DNA from: Gemmatimonadaceae bacterium
GTDB taxonomy: Bacteria; Gemmatimonadota; Gemmatimonadetes; Gemmatimonadales; Gemmatimonadaceae
Length of the DNA: 34,303 bases
Assembly (NCBI GenBank): GCA_013697785.1
Contig: JACCWE010000077.1
Location: 1 to 34,303 of the forward strand
Direction of reading: 5' to 3'
Below, in pieces: positions 16,083-21,606 of this stretch; the stretch's first letter is position 1; each line of letters opens with the position of its first letter. Position numbers and translations under genes: made by a program. The notes under the pieces were generated by a model. It was not told the origin of the DNA. It saw only the letters and a program-made list of their open reading frames with translations, and did no database searches.

Positions 16083-16948
16083 GCGGCGAAGGTGGCAATC
16101 CCGGCGCGCCACCGGCGCGATTCGTGGATCTTCACATGCACTCGACCGCGTCCGACGGCGTCGCCGCTCCCGCTGACGTCGTCGCCGCTGCGCACAACGC
16201 CGGCCTCTCCGCTATCGCGTTGACGGACCACGACACGGTCGACGGCATCGCGGAGGCGCAAGCCGCCGGCAACGCGATCGGTGTGCGAGTCGTCGCGGGA
16301 GTGGAGTTGAGCGCCGTCGATGATGGCGACGAAATTCACGTGCTCGGATTGCATCTCACGCATCCGGAGCACATCGCCGCTGCACTCACGGAGCTCAAGG
16401 AAGCGCGCCGCGATCGCGCGCGAATAACTGTCGAGAAGCTCAACTCACTCGGCATCCCGGTCACGCTCGACGCAGTGTTCGCCGCCGCCGGCGATGGCGC
16501 CGTCGGCCGCCCGCACATCGCGAAGGCGCTCGTCGCCGGCGGGTGGGCGCGCGACTTTCGCGATGCCTTCGACAAGTGGCTCGGCAACGGCCGACCCGCC
16601 TGCATCGAAAAGCGGACGGTGACATTCGAGGAGGCGGCGCGACTCATCCACGATGCGGGCGGCCTCGCGGTGTACGCGCATCCCGGCGGCGGCGCCTCGC
16701 GCGCCGATCTCGAAGAGCTCGCATCGCTCGGCCTCGACTCGGTCGAGGTGCGTCACCCGAGTCACACCGCCGACGAAATCGTGCGGCTCGGCGCGTTGAC
16801 CGACGAGCTCGGACTCGTGCCGAGCGGCGGCTCCGACTGGCATGGCGCGCCGGAGGGTTATCGCGCGCTCGGCAGCATGAAGGTGAGCATCGACTGGCTC
16901 GCGCGGCAGGACGAGCGTGTACGTCGGCGCGCGGAGCAGCTCACGTGA
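16079..16948 (+). CDS. PHP-domain phosphoesterase (YciV/RNase AM-like)
   Basis: 289 residues from a GTG start. The PHP metal-binding motifs occur in order: DLHMHSTASDG (two His), LTDHDTVDGI (His and Asp), the Glu in AGVELSAVDD, YAHPGG, and GSDWHGAPEG near the C-terminus. This full set with the middle insertion (RARITVEKLNSLGIPVTLDA, then GRPHIAKAL) matches the YciV family, which includes 3',5'-nucleoside bisphosphate phosphatase and RNase AM, 5'-3' exonucleases that mature rRNA ends. Three metal ions are expected. It overlaps the peroxiredoxin gene by four bases. Whether it acts on RNA or on small nucleotides is not decided. Confidence 0.88.
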   Translation: MSGEGGNPGAPPARFVDLHMHSTASDGVAAPADVVAAAHNAGLSAIALTDHDTVDGIAEAQAAGNAIGVRVVAGVELSAVDDGDEIHVLGLHLTHPEHIAAALTELKEARRDRARITVEKLNSLGIPVTLDAVFAAAGDGAVGRPHIAKALVAGGWARDFRDAFDKWLGNGRPACIEKRTVTFEEAARLIHDAGGLAVYAHPGGGASRADLEELASLGLDSVEVRHPSHTADEIVRLGALTDELGLVPSGGSDWHGAPEGYRALGSMKVSIDWLARQDERVRRRAEQLT

Positions 16949-17391
16949 GCAGCGAGCTCCCGGCGCTCGGCAGCAGGTCACCCGATTTCTCGGCGAAAGC
17001 GAGCGATGGGTCGACGGTGAGCTTGACCGAGCTCCTGAAGAACGGATCGGTCGCGCTCTTCTTCTATCCCGGCGACGACACGCCGGGGTGCAACCGTCAG
17101 CTCTCCGCAGTGCGCGACGATCTCGCGGACTTCCACGCTGCCGGGATTCAGCCCTTCGGCGTGAATCCCGCTGGCATGGAGAGCCACGCGAAGTACGCCC
17201 GGAAGTTCGACTTCAACTTTCCCCTGCTCGTCGATGCGGATCGTGCGATCGCAGCTGCATTCGGTGCGCTCAAGGACAACGGCACCGGCATTCAGCGCTC
17301 CGTGCTCGGCATCGGCCGCGACGGCACGATTTGCTTCGCCGTGCGCGGCGCTCCGCCGCCGGCCGAAGTGATCGCTGCCCTCGAGAAGTAG
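16945..17391 (+). CDS. Peroxiredoxin, Bcp/PrxQ type with a single cysteine
   Basis: 148 residues from a GTG overlapping the PHP stop. The thioredoxin fold and Bcp hallmark are seen: SPDFSAKASDGSTVSLTELL, then FFYPGDDTPGCNRQLSAVRDD, where the cysteine of TPGC is the peroxidatic residue. The resolving cysteine of classical Bcp, five residues later, is a serine here, and no other cysteine is present. It therefore works as a 1-Cys enzyme that needs an outside thiol for recycling. It reduces hydrogen peroxide or organic peroxides in the cytoplasm. A thioredoxin reductase gene lies about 1.5 kb downstream in the same array. Confidence 0.88.
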   Translation: MSSELPALGSRSPDFSAKASDGSTVSLTELLKNGSVALFFYPGDDTPGCNRQLSAVRDDLADFHAAGIQPFGVNPAGMESHAKYARKFDFNFPLLVDADRAIAAAFGALKDNGTGIQRSVLGIGRDGTICFAVRGAPPPAEVIAALEK

Positions 17392-17392
17392 C

Positions 17393-18121
17393 GTGGAGCT
17401 CGCCGGACGAGTCGCGCTGGTCACCGGCGCGGGCCGGCGAGTGGGGCGCGCAATCGCGCTCGCCCTCGCGGCGAAGAAGATGCGTGTCGCCGTGCATTAC
17501 AACTCTTCGTCCCGGGAAGCCGACGAGAGTGTGCGCCTCGCGCTCGCCGCCGGCGCAACGGACGCGTGGGCGATGTCCGCAGACCTGCGCGATCCCGTCG
17601 CGATAACGAAGCTCGTAGAGGATGTCGCCGCGCGCGGCGGCTCGCTCGACGTGCTCGTGAACTCGGCTGCGGAGATGAAGCGCACGCCGTTCGACTCGGT
17701 GACGCCGGAAGAGTGGGATGACATCATGTCGCTCAACATGCGGTCGCCGTTTTTCTGCTCGCAGGCTGCCGCGCGGCACATGGCGAAGGGTGGCGCGATC
17801 GTGAACATCGCCGACCTCGCGGCACTGGAGACCTGGCCGGAGTACATCCCGCACGGAATCTCGAAAGCGGGCGTGATGCAGATGACGCGCGCTCTCGCGA
17901 GGAAGCTCGCGCCGGCGATTCGCGTGAATGCCGTGGTCCCCGGCGCGGTGCTGTTGCCAGAGCACTGGACGAAAGAAGATGCGGAGAAGCTGATCCGCAC
18001 GACTCCACTCGCGAGGCTCGGCGCCCCCGAGGATGTCGCGCACGCCGTGGTCTATCTGCTCGAGTCCGACTATGTCACCGGCGATGCACTGGTCGTCGAC
18101 GGCGGCCGGCACCTGCGCTGA
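17393..18121 (+). CDS. SDR oxidoreductase, pteridine-reductase-like, atypical active site
   Basis: 242 residues from GTG, two bases after the peroxiredoxin stop. The cofactor loop VTGAGRRVGRAIALALA has the TGxxxRxG form found in pteridine reductases, which favours NADPH. NSAAE follows the fourth strand. In the active site the usual YxxxK reads HGISK (within EYIPHGISKAGVMQMT), so the catalytic Tyr position is His; a Tyr occurs three residues earlier. The serine position is IADLAAL instead of SS. The C-terminal DYVTGDALVVDGGRHLR is standard. It may use altered chemistry or be a reductase of unusual specificity. It is a full-length gene, unlike the SDR remnant at the left end. Confidence 0.85.
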   Translation: MELAGRVALVTGAGRRVGRAIALALAAKKMRVAVHYNSSSREADESVRLALAAGATDAWAMSADLRDPVAITKLVEDVAARGGSLDVLVNSAAEMKRTPFDSVTPEEWDDIMSLNMRSPFFCSQAAARHMAKGGAIVNIADLAALETWPEYIPHGISKAGVMQMTRALARKLAPAIRVNAVVPGAVLLPEHWTKEDAEKLIRTTPLARLGAPEDVAHAVVYLLESDYVTGDALVVDGGRHLR

Positions 18122-18129
18122 GCGCAGCG

Positions 18130-18900
18130 ATGCCGCCGCTCGCTCCCGCTCAGCACTACGGCACCATCGTCATCGTCGGCGGTGGCTGCTACGGCTCCTA
18201 CTATTTGCGGCAGCTGGGCCGAGCGGCGCGTGCCGGCGCGCTCACGGCGGAGCGAATCGTGGTCGTCGATCGGGACGCGAGCTGCCGGGTGTCCTCGGAG
18301 TTCGACCACGACGAGCCATTCACAGTCGAGCTGAGCATCGCCGAGTGGACGCCGTTCTTCGACGACTATCTCGGCGCCGCTGCCGCTCGCGCTCCGGGCG
18401 CCGGAGCGAGTGCCCCCGACGCCATCGTGCCGTCACCGCTCATGCCGCATCTCATGTACGAATGGCTCGCGCGGCGCGCGCGTGAGCGCTGGCCCGCGCG
18501 CGCGGTTGAATCGCGTCCGCTCGAGGCGCCATCCGGTATTCCGTGGCAGCGCCGTGGCGAAGACGGGACGCAGTACGTGAGCTTCGCCGAGTGGATCTGT
18601 CCGGTGAATTGCATCGAGCCGGCGCTCTGTCCGGCGACGCGCGGGGAGCGCAGCTGGAGCATGCCTCCCGCCGTCCTGGCAGCCACCGAAGAGGCGCGTA
18701 GGAGCGGGCGGAACCTTGCGGGTCCCGTCATCTTTCATTGTCAGCACCGCGCGTACGGTGTGGGAATGTTCGACACGAGCGCCGTGGTGGCAGGCGATGT
18801 GCTCGTGCAGAGGGCGGCGGAAGCGGGGGCGGTAGAGGTGCTCGTCGGAACGGTATCGCATTGCCACGGCGCGCTCAGCGTGCTCGCGGTGGGCGCGTAA
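18130..18900 (+). CDS. Uncharacterised Rossmann-like protein with a cysteine cluster
   Basis: 256 residues. The N-terminus TIVIVGGGCYGSYYLRQLG is a beta-loop-helix dinucleotide motif (GGGxxG), with RIVVVDRD as the second strand and its acidic end, so an NAD(P)- or FAD-type ligand is likely. In the middle, YVSFAEWICPVNCIEPALCP carries three cysteines spaced CX3CX6C, a possible metal or Fe-S site. Later IFHCQHRAYGVGMFDTS and VSHCHGALSVLAVGA add Cys/His residues. There are no membrane segments. It lies between an SDR and thioredoxin reductase in the operon, which hints at redox chemistry. I do not recognise the family and assign no reaction. Confidence 0.78.
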   Translation: MPPLAPAQHYGTIVIVGGGCYGSYYLRQLGRAARAGALTAERIVVVDRDASCRVSSEFDHDEPFTVELSIAEWTPFFDDYLGAAAARAPGAGASAPDAIVPSPLMPHLMYEWLARRARERWPARAVESRPLEAPSGIPWQRRGEDGTQYVSFAEWICPVNCIEPALCPATRGERSWSMPPAVLAATEEARRSGRNLAGPVIFHCQHRAYGVGMFDTSAVVAGDVLVQRAAEAGAVEVLVGTVSHCHGALSVLAVGA

Positions 18901-18931
18901 AATCGGCAGACTTTTGGCGAAAGGGGCTATC

Positions 18932-19921
18932 GTGGGACAGACGTACGAATACGACGTGGTGATCATCGGAGCGGGCCCCGCGGGGCTCACGGCCGGGCTG
19001 TACGCCGGCCGCTCGATGCTCAAGGCCGTGATGCTCGAGCGGCTCGGCGAGCCCGGAGGAGAGATCCTCAATACGGAGCTCGTCGAAGACTATCCCGGCT
19101 TCGAGTCCATCTTCGGGCGCGAGCTCGCCGAGAAGTTCGCGAGCCACGCTGCGAAGTTCGGAGCCGAGCTCAGAACCTTCGTCGTCGTCGAGCGCGTGGA
19201 GCGTGGCGAGGATGGGATCTTCACGACGACCACCGATGACGGCGATGTGTATCGCTCTCCCACCGTCATCCTCACCGCGGGCGGAACGCCGATCAAGCTC
19301 GGCGTTCCCGGCGAGGAGTTGTACGCGGGGAAGGGCGTGTCGTACTGCGCGATCTGCGATGGTGCGTTCTTCAAGGGCCACACGATCGCCGTGGTGGGCG
19401 GCGGCGATGCGGCACTCGAGGAAGCCGACTTTCTCACACGCTACGCCGAAAAGGTCTATCTGCTCCACCGGCGCGAAGGCTTCCGCGCATCGAAGCTCGT
19501 TCAGCGGCGCGTGTTCGACAATCCGAAGATCGAGATCGTGCGCAACGTCGTGGTCGAGGAGATCGTGGGCGATGATACGGGGCTCGTCACGAGCGTGCGA
19601 CTGCGCAACACGGTCACCGAGGAGCGCTCGCCGCTTGCGGTGAGCGGCGCCTTCATCTTCATCGGCTTCCGTCCGAACACCGGCGTTCTCGTCGACCATG
19701 TGCAGCACGATGCCGGTGGCTACATCATCACCGACGCGAACATGGAGTCGGACGTTCCCGGCCTCTTCATCGCCGGCGACGTTCGCTCGCAGCTCACGCG
19801 CCAGGTGACCACCGCGGCCGGCGACGGCACAACCGCGGCGATCGCGGTGGAGAAGTACATCACCTCCTTCCGCCGCCACGAGCCGACGGAGATCATGAGC
19901 AACGGCGGCTACACCGTATGA
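18932..19921 (+). CDS. trxB: Thioredoxin reductase
   Basis: 329 residues. It passes electrons from NADPH via FAD to thioredoxin. FAD motif VVIIGAGPAGLTAGLYAGRS is at the N-terminus; the redox pair is in SYCAICDGAFF (CAIC where CATC is commonest); the NADPH motif is AVVGGGDAALEEADFLTRYA with HRREGFRASK; and the second FAD motif is VPGLFIAGDVR, then RQVTTAAGDGTTAAIAVEKY. The GTG at 18932 is chosen because AAAGGGG ends five bases upstream; a TTG at 18914 is possible. It overlaps the MBL hydrolase gene as ATGA. It may recycle the nearby 1-Cys peroxiredoxin through thioredoxin. Confidence 0.94.
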   Translation: MGQTYEYDVVIIGAGPAGLTAGLYAGRSMLKAVMLERLGEPGGEILNTELVEDYPGFESIFGRELAEKFASHAAKFGAELRTFVVVERVERGEDGIFTTTTDDGDVYRSPTVILTAGGTPIKLGVPGEELYAGKGVSYCAICDGAFFKGHTIAVVGGGDAALEEADFLTRYAEKVYLLHRREGFRASKLVQRRVFDNPKIEIVRNVVVEEIVGDDTGLVTSVRLRNTVTEERSPLAVSGAFIFIGFRPNTGVLVDHVQHDAGGYIITDANMESDVPGLFIAGDVRSQLTRQVTTAAGDGTTAAIAVEKYITSFRRHEPTEIMSNGGYTV

Positions 19922-20565
19922 AGGTCGAGACGCTGACCGTCGGTCCGCTCGAAGAGAACTGCTACCTCGTGATCGACGAGGCGACCGATCGCGCGGTGAT
20001 CATCGATCCGGGCGACGACCCCGAGCGAATCCTCGAGGCGCTCGACGCGTCGGGCGCGACGCTCGAGAGCATCTGGCTGACGCACGCGCACTTCGATCAC
20101 GTGGGTGGTCTCGCCGGAATACTCCGTGAGCATCCCGTTCCCGTGCACATGCATCCGCTCGACGCACCGCTGCACGCGCAGGCAGTGGACTCTGCGCTCC
20201 GCTACGGCATCCGCATCGAGACGCCGCCGGGCGCGAGCGATCATCTCGCCGAGGGAGATCGCATGGTGGTCGGCTCCGAGGAGCTGTCGGTGATGCACGT
20301 GCCGGGGCACGCGCCGGGCCACGTCATCTTCCACAACGCTGACGTCGTCTTTGGCGGGGACTGCCTGTTCGCGGGGTCGATTGGGCGAACGGATCTCGAG
20401 TACGGTGACCGCGCTGCGCTCGATGCTTCACTCGCCCGAATCGTCGCGCTGGGCGATGATCTCACCGTCTATCCGGGGCACGGTCGGGCGACGACTATCG
20501 GCCGTGAGCGCGCGACCAATCCCTTTCTGCTCGGCTCAGCGCGACTCGTTCGCGTGAAGCGGTGA
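19918..20565 (+). CDS. MBL-fold metallo-hydrolase (glyoxalase II-like)
   Basis: 215 residues. Zinc motifs: THAHFDHVGG (HxHxDH) at about residue 60, a His in VPGHAPGH, an Asp in FGGDCLFAGSIGRTDL and the last His in YPGHGRATTIGRE. This is the glyoxalase II-like group (YcbL type), which is small and lacks the extra C-terminal domain of true GloB. It would hydrolyse a thioester, possibly a glutathione- or other thiol-linked acyl group. ATGA overlap with trxB and GTGA overlap with the membrane protein gene show tight coupling. Exact substrate unknown. Confidence 0.9.
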   Translation: MKVETLTVGPLEENCYLVIDEATDRAVIIDPGDDPERILEALDASGATLESIWLTHAHFDHVGGLAGILREHPVPVHMHPLDAPLHAQAVDSALRYGIRIETPPGASDHLAEGDRMVVGSEELSVMHVPGHAPGHVIFHNADVVFGGDCLFAGSIGRTDLEYGDRAALDASLARIVALGDDLTVYPGHGRATTIGRERATNPFLLGSARLVRVKR

Positions 20566-21077
20566 GCGAGCGGACGACGGACGCCCTCCGGCTGCGCTCC
20601 GGATGGTCGACCCCTGTGGCCGCGTCGCTGCTCTCGGCCTGGCTCGGCGCAGCGCTTTACTTCACGGTCGTCGTCACGCGCGCGGCCTTCGCCGTGCTCC
20701 CATCGCGCACGGTTGCCGGTGCGCTCGTAGGGCAGACGCTTCCGGTGCTGTTCGATACGGGAATGGTCGTCGGAGTCATTCTCGTCATCGTCGCGCGCAT
20801 CGCGATGAGCGGTGTCGTACGCTCGACGAGCCTCACGGGTGGAGTGGCCATTCTCGCGCTTTCCGCGCTCGCGCGCTTCGCGATCCTCACGCGCATCGAA
20901 GCCCTCCGCGCCTCAGTGCCAACGCCCATCGATTCGCTCGCAATCGCCGATCCCGCGCGACGGACATTCGGAGAGCTGCATGCGCTCTCCGTCGGCGCGC
21001 TCGGCCTCGCAATGCTCACCGGTATCGTGGTGGCCGTGGTGCTCGCTCACTCACTCTCGGTCGCCTCCCATGACTAG
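20562..21077 (+). CDS. DUF4149-like (TMEM205-type) membrane protein
   Basis: 171 residues from GTG. Four hydrophobic segments are visible: SLLSAWLGAALYFTVVVTRA, LFDTGMVVGVILVIVARIAM, TGGVAILALSALARFAILTR and LHALSVGALGLAMLTGIVVA. Between helices 1 and 2 the sequence AAFAVLPSRTVAGALVGQTL fits the DUF4149 pattern, where a conserved VLPSR-type motif lies after the first helix. The function of this family is not established. It sits between a hydrolase and an AhpD-like gene, with overlaps on both sides. Confidence 0.75.
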   Translation: MSERTTDALRLRSGWSTPVAASLLSAWLGAALYFTVVVTRAAFAVLPSRTVAGALVGQTLPVLFDTGMVVGVILVIVARIAMSGVVRSTSLTGGVAILALSALARFAILTRIEALRASVPTPIDSLAIADPARRTFGELHALSVGALGLAMLTGIVVAVVLAHSLSVASHD

Positions 21078-21606
21078 CGGCTCGCCTCGCGTCCCCCTTC
21101 CCGCACTGGAAGACGCCACGCCCGATGTGCACAAGCTCTTCGACGCCTTCATTCGCGAGCGGGGCAACGTTCCGAATCTCTTCCGCGCCGCGTCGCTTCG
21201 TCCTCCGATCGTGCTCACCTTGTTCGCGCATCTGCGCGCGGTCACCGGCCCGGGCGAAGTGCCGGTGCTGCTCAAGGAGCTACTGACTGTCAGGGTGTCT
21301 CAGATAAACGTGTGCGCGTACTGCCTTGCGTCGCACACGGCACTGTCGCGCAAGCACGGCGCGACGGACGAGCAGATCGCGTCGCTGGAAGCGGGGCGCT
21401 TCGATGTTTTCGAGCCAGGATGGCGCGCGGCACTGGCTTACGCGGACGCGATGACTCCGACCAACGGCGACGCGACGGACGAGATTTACGCCGAACTGGC
21501 CAGATGGTGGACACCGCCCCAAATTATCGAAATCACGGCTGTGATCGGATTCTTCAATTATTTCAATCGATTTGCTGAGGCGCTGCGCATTCCCGTCACG
21601 CGGTGA
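21070..21606 (+). CDS. Carboxymuconolactone decarboxylase/AhpD-like alkylhydroperoxidase
   Basis: 178 residues. The AhpD-like active site is CAYCLASHTALSRKHG (CxxC plus a His three residues on), preceded by VLLKELLTVRVSQIN. The same cysteines in AhpD reduce a peroxiredoxin partner and act on peroxides. The C-terminal half with IIEITAVIGFFNYFNRFAEA is the conserved helix of the family. The ATG at 21070 overlaps the previous gene by eight bases. With a 1-Cys peroxiredoxin and thioredoxin reductase in the same array, a peroxide-defence role is plausible. A decarboxylase role would need other residues and is less likely. Confidence 0.88.
   Translation: MTSGSPRVPLPALEDATPDVHKLFDAFIRERGNVPNLFRAASLRPPIVLTLFAHLRAVTGPGEVPVLLKELLTVRVSQINVCAYCLASHTALSRKHGATDEQIASLEAGRFDVFEPGWRAALAYADAMTPTNGDATDEIYAELARWWTPPQIIEITAVIGFFNYFNRFAEALRIPVTR

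Follow-up and report, generated by a model that had tools for sequence, protein, structure and literature searches.

An unnamed bacterial protein family with a predicted Rossmann unit and a strictly conserved cysteine/histidine site, tentatively read as a [4Fe-4S] redox protein

Results

Gene X and its surroundings

The window, i.e. the whole stretch of 34,303 nucleotides analyzed here, comes from a Gemmatimonadaceae bacterium and holds, in this order, genes for an E2 lipoyl acyltransferase, a PHP phosphoesterase, a peroxiredoxin, an SDR, the protein under study (hereafter X), a thioredoxin reductase (TrxR), a metallo-beta-lactamase-fold (MBL) hydrolase and a DUF4149 membrane protein (Table 1). 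The flanks of X are those described in an earlier sequence-only reading, namely a pteridine-reductase-like SDR upstream and a TrxR recognized by TIGR01292 downstream. X begins 8 nt past the SDR stop codon, and the first possible TrxR start lies 13 nt after the end of X, this start being unsure (TTG 18914 or a later codon). Since the peroxiredoxin domain covers only part of its ORF, the ORF is called too early and the real gene starts near 16950.

Table 1. Positions of X, its conserved residues and the neighboring genes in the window
Feature	Position	Strand	Basis and remarks
X, whole gene (256 aa)	18130..18900	+	ORF from ATG 18130 to TAA 18900; orthologues; dN/dS; AlphaFold2
VGGGCYGS, GxGxxG dinucleotide loop including C20, residues 16-23	18175..18198	+	Alignment; model strand 8-16, then helix 20-34
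D47, acidic residue at end of second Rossmann strand	18268..18270	+	65/67 members; alignment and model
C52, outside the invariant core	18283..18285	+	58/67 members; alignment
H107, invariant, start of helix after central strand 98-100	18448..18450	+	Alignment and model
SxAxWxCPxxCxEPxxCP, core of cysteine site in long loop, residues 151-168	18580..18633	+	67/67 members; model mostly coil
C204, between two strands	18739..18741	+	65/67 members; alignment and model
SHCHG (S243, C245 and H246 invariant), turn between last two strands, residues 243-247	18856..18870	+	Alignment and model
Peroxiredoxin (AhpC/TSA) ORF	16543-17391		PF00578 on residues ~142-282 only
SDR, nearest to pteridine reductase/FolM-like models	17393..18121	+	Below NCBIfam curated cut-off
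Thioredoxin reductase, CAICD active site	18914..19921	+	TIGR01292, 353 bits (cut-off 343)
MBL-fold hydrolase	19918..20565	+	PF00753
DUF4149 membrane protein	20562..21077	+	PF13664; beside X in second phylum too
AhpD-like carboxymuconolactone decarboxylase-family protein	20812-21606		PF02627; ORF start too early, overlaps DUF4149 gene

Compared with three close relatives (74-88% identity), X has a dN/dS of 0.14-0.22, and its reading frame is therefore a gene; X is real and purifying selection is acting on it. The motifs that had been read from the sequence, i.e. GGGCYGS, CPVNC with a further cysteine (167), HCQH and SHCH, are all present in the ORF, its seven cysteines being situated at residues 20, 52, 157, 161, 167, 204 and 245. 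CPVNC corresponds to residues 157-161 and HCQH to 203-206, and the cysteines within residues 151-168 are spaced C157-X3-C161-X5-C167. The cluster spacing that had been given as CX3CX6C thus needs correction to CX3CX5C, which holds in every one of the 67 members aligned below. A CxxC redox pair, as in thioredoxin-type thiol oxidoreductases, is absent from the X sequence, and so are the radical SAM motif CX3CX2C and the lipoyl synthase motif CX4CX5C, with CX3CX5C found instead.

Family assignment

X scored below the curated cut-off of every family in Pfam and NCBIfam, and no significant match was found in PHROGs, PADLOC or the sequences of the PDB, the last including sequence profiles, which agrees with the earlier statement that no known family has this combination. 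The sole FAD/NAD-type match of the window protein was to NAD_binding_9 (PF13454), at 15 bits against a cut-off of 21.8. Some members matched DAO (PF01266), NAD_binding_9 or TrkA_N (PF02254) weakly (best E 4e-4), presumably over the GxGxxG region, while most had no match to FAD/NAD-binding Pfam families. Our search of the literature yielded nothing on the family. X is consequently a member of a bacterial family without a name, in which an ordinary nucleotide-binding fold is joined to a cysteine/histidine site that is both new and strictly conserved.

Conservation of the cysteine/histidine site

Conservation was assessed in an alignment of 67 distinct members, with identities down to about 20%. 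Sixteen positions are invariant in 67/67, namely H107, P138, S151, A153, W155, C157, P158, C161, E163, P164, C167, P168, W176, S243, C245 and H246. The cysteines of the site, whose conservation the earlier reading had put at stake, are thereby retained: C157, C161, C167 and C245 throughout, within the motif CPx2CxEPx2CP of constant spacing as far as the first three are concerned, and C204 in all members except L091 and L093. The distance from the third cysteine to C204 is most often 36 residues (CX3CX5CX36C). Four of the seven cysteines fall among the 16 invariant columns (hypergeometric P = 3e-4), and when cysteines and histidines are taken together P = 5e-5. This enrichment, together with the dN/dS, places the cysteine pattern beyond chance.

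Other parts of the protein are less constant. C20 is found in 60/67 members, and both C20 and C52 are missing from a distant clade and a few others, in which clade the GxGxxG loop has also decayed (to GGHELS, GAHQLA and similar). The distant member L077 has exactly five cysteines, at the positions equivalent to 157, 161, 167, 204 and 245. Because the loop decays while the cysteine site is kept, the indispensable part of X is the cysteine/histidine site and not the nucleotide loop, and nucleotide binding by the family would not be universal. Of the HCQH and SHCH motifs pointed out earlier, C204, mostly H206, C245 and H246 are kept, whereas residue 203 varies and position 244 is a histidine in only 37/67 members, so that H203 and H244 do not count.

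Predicted fold

An AlphaFold2 model of X, made from the family alignment, had a pLDDT of 94.6 and a pTM of 0.91, and that of a 23% identical member, in which strands and helices follow in the same order, had a pLDDT of 92.3, the two runs being not fully independent as their alignments are partly common. When both models were searched with Foldseek against 350,542 PDB chains, no match was obtained at E <= 0.001. The best matches of the distant-member model covered ~80-120 residues with a probability of 0.97-0.99 and consisted of Rossmann units (ArnA, EvdS6 and homospermidine synthase) and the N-termini of PurK/PurT, all with a query TM-score of at most 0.26. For the cysteine-bearing remainder, residues ~120-256, Foldseek matched no solved PDB fold, and a fold search against viral models gave nothing significant.

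The earlier designation as a Rossmann protein is borne out for the N-terminal unit, both by the AlphaFold2 models and by the Foldseek match of the first half of the distant member. X displays a beta-alpha-beta unit, GxGxxG at residues 17-22 and the acidic D47 after strand 2. An acidic residue after strand 2 serves as a guide to cofactor preference in Rossmann folds, and with D47, NAD(H) or FAD would be expected in preference to NADP(H). In the models, H107, C204 and C245 are located in post-strand loops, where the active edge of a Rossmann-type sheet is usually found, and a long loop holds C157-C167; we infer that the cysteine ligands converge in space.

Distribution and inheritance

When one genome of each species was scanned, 14 X loci were obtained, of which 13 belong to Gemmatimonadota and one (L014) to a second phylum. 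A profile search, which covered these two phyla, recovered X in 109/298 sampled Gemmatimonadota genomes (92/256 good genomes), in the families f1, f2 and f4, and in 15/46 genomes of the phylum of L014. The true range is probably wider than these two phyla. One carrier is a closed genome (G051:C1, locus L096). Plasmid and phage records yielded no match, and viral contigs no relative. In the gene tree, the members cluster by taxonomic family and the number of changes is the minimum possible, from which we conclude that inheritance has been mainly vertical. In 18 of the 20 X-less Gemmatimonadota loci having both flanks, at most about 0.7 kb separates the SDR gene from TrxR or a TrxR-like gene, and this adjacency without X in between points to repeated loss of X.

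Gene neighborhood

Much of the gene order of the window is kept in most Gemmatimonadales loci, and TrxR was found downstream of X in most of those examined. In family f4, the gene directly upstream of X (L094 3894-4967; L095 3449-4534 on the minus strand) encodes a ferredoxin-NADP reductase (FNR), i.e. a protein of TrxR-like type whose best PDB relatives are mostly FNRs and which is without CxxC; the other Gemmatimonadota carry a true TrxR on the downstream side instead. Two loci of the second phylum, L108 and L109, have glutamate synthase subunits, including the small subunit, upstream of X. That the flavoproteins near X in three lineages are different ones, yet all use NAD(P)H and belong to a single superfamily, is suggestive, as a pattern that was noticed after the fact among about ten inspected contexts.

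The position between SDR and TrxR, from which an oxidoreductase had been suggested, is as described, but its weight as a functional hint is small, since X-less relatives keep the two genes side by side and the link to TrxR may be inherited gene order only. For the same reason we rejected a dependence of X on SDR and TrxR as strong evidence. Four relatives without X (G007, G011, G019 and G020, loci L136-L139) have a divergent TrxR-like gene, 38-41% identical, in the same place.

The DUF4149 gene, for which we know of no established function, is no more than 4 kb away from X in 25/25 Gemmatimonadota genomes checked and adjoins X on the opposite strand in seven genomes of the second phylum (L014, L098, L099, L100, L102, L103 and L104), so that the neighborhood spans two phyla. 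Its presence in Gemmatimonadota is uncorrelated with that of X (33/109 vs 46/189, P = 0.28), while in the second phylum it was found in 8/8 close X members vs 4/38 others (P = 2e-6), those genomes possibly representing one clade. Also in the second phylum, an MqnE-like radical SAM gene adjoins X in L102, L105, L108 and L110, in divergent and convergent arrangements. Co-occurrence with this menaquinone enzyme was rejected, since MqnE is near-universal whether or not X is present (38/41 Gemmatimonadota relatives have it regardless of X).

Discussion

Likeness to known systems

The first ~80-120 residues of X have a fold like that of the ArnA and EvdS6 SDR decarboxylases, homospermidine synthase and the N-terminal unit of PurK/PurT, and GxGxxG followed by an acidic residue after strand 2 is shared with classical NAD-binding Rossmann units. 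X differs from all of these in its unmatched residues ~120-256 and in the loss of the loop from distant members; to our knowledge, classical Rossmann and PurK/PurT folds have no such cysteine site. The auxiliary [4Fe-4S] site of lipoyl synthase has a similar three-cysteine spacing, CX4CX5C vs CX3CX5C in X, and an extra ligand far along the chain, as proposed for X. Lipoyl synthase is, however, a radical SAM barrel and matched X neither in sequence nor in fold, and a lipoyl synthase-like site was thus rejected, the likeness being one of spacing only. Among 4Fe-4S ferredoxins, a subtype CX3CX5CX32CP is listed (PMC11430716), which has the CX3CX5C of X, with the next cysteine after 32 residues vs mostly 36 in X. 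By any search run, X showed no homology to this subtype, and it differs from a ferredoxin in being Rossmann-type and two to three times as long.

Nature of the site

X has the appearance of a redox protein awaiting characterization, rather than of a pattern due to chance. Our best explanation, held tentatively and at a little less than an even chance, is that X is a soluble [4Fe-4S] redox protein with a Rossmann unit and a four-cysteine metal center; the presence and kind of metal, the function in redox chemistry and the partner are all putative. The N-terminal Rossmann unit would bind the nucleotide and the C-terminal part would hold the center, most likely [4Fe-4S], with C157, C161, C167 and C245, the four candidate ligands found in 67/67 members, as cluster ligands and with H107, C204 and H246 close by as extra ligands or catalytic groups. 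NAD(P)H might supply the electrons, via the dinucleotide loop of X itself or via the flavoprotein of TrxR class encoded next door, and the cluster would hand them on to a partner or small substrate close to C204/H246. Judged from the alignment, the invariant four cysteines, two histidines, EP, two CP and two tryptophans at fixed spacing would suit a buried metal center better than surface thiols, and a CP after the first and third cysteines is common in [4Fe-4S] proteins. Also in favor are the CX3CX5C spacing shared with the ferredoxin subtype, the five cysteines of L077, the predicted loop positions of H107, C204 and C245, and the flavoproteins near X.

The same four cysteines and two histidines would also fit zinc, in a structural role or, with H107, H246 and C204, in a hydrolytic or lyase center without redox function, and most loci of the second phylum have no redox partner tied to X. 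Zinc ribbons, however, seldom have CX3C and CX5C spacings combined with CP, and this, together with the TrxR, FNR and small-subunit glutamate synthase (GltD) flavoproteins near X, makes zinc rather unlikely. That X is usually followed by TrxR in Gemmatimonadales, with a peroxiredoxin-type gene two genes upstream in the window, could instead mean that the cysteines form a metal-free thiol/disulfide relay or switch that is reduced by the neighboring thioredoxin system. This we consider quite improbable, as X is without a CxxC pair, the f4 neighbor is an FNR without redox cysteines, genomes without X still have TrxR, and switches rarely keep four cysteines at fixed spacing along with the surrounding proline, glutamate and tryptophan.

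Slightly more improbable still is a protein for metal or sulfur handling, i.e. a chaperone, delivery or sensing function in which the Rossmann unit binds nucleotide for regulation only. The patchy retention of X among relatives, its linkage to the DUF4149 membrane protein in both phyla and, in L102, to a putative CutA-like ORF recognized by eye would agree with such a role, but DUF4149 has no established function, and in Gemmatimonadota its presence is uncorrelated with that of X. Returning to the [4Fe-4S] redox protein, a fuller version, which we put forward as a possibility and with more doubt, would make X a new metalloprotein fold of Gemmatimonadota and the second phylum, in which a Rossmann unit is joined to an unseen domain that binds [4Fe-4S] via CPx2CxEPx2CP and the C-terminal SxCH, with a TrxR-class flavoprotein as its partner in electron transfer or catalysis.

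Significance

Uncharacterised protein families are numerous; X offers a fixed cysteine motif and a confidently predicted fold, with no solved relative, for testing. The combination of CPx2CxEPx2CP and SxCH lends itself to searches of other phyla. If the cluster is true, X would add a new cofactor site, and perhaps a new fold, to the iron-sulfur proteins, and would give a redox function to a phylum of which few proteins have been characterised.
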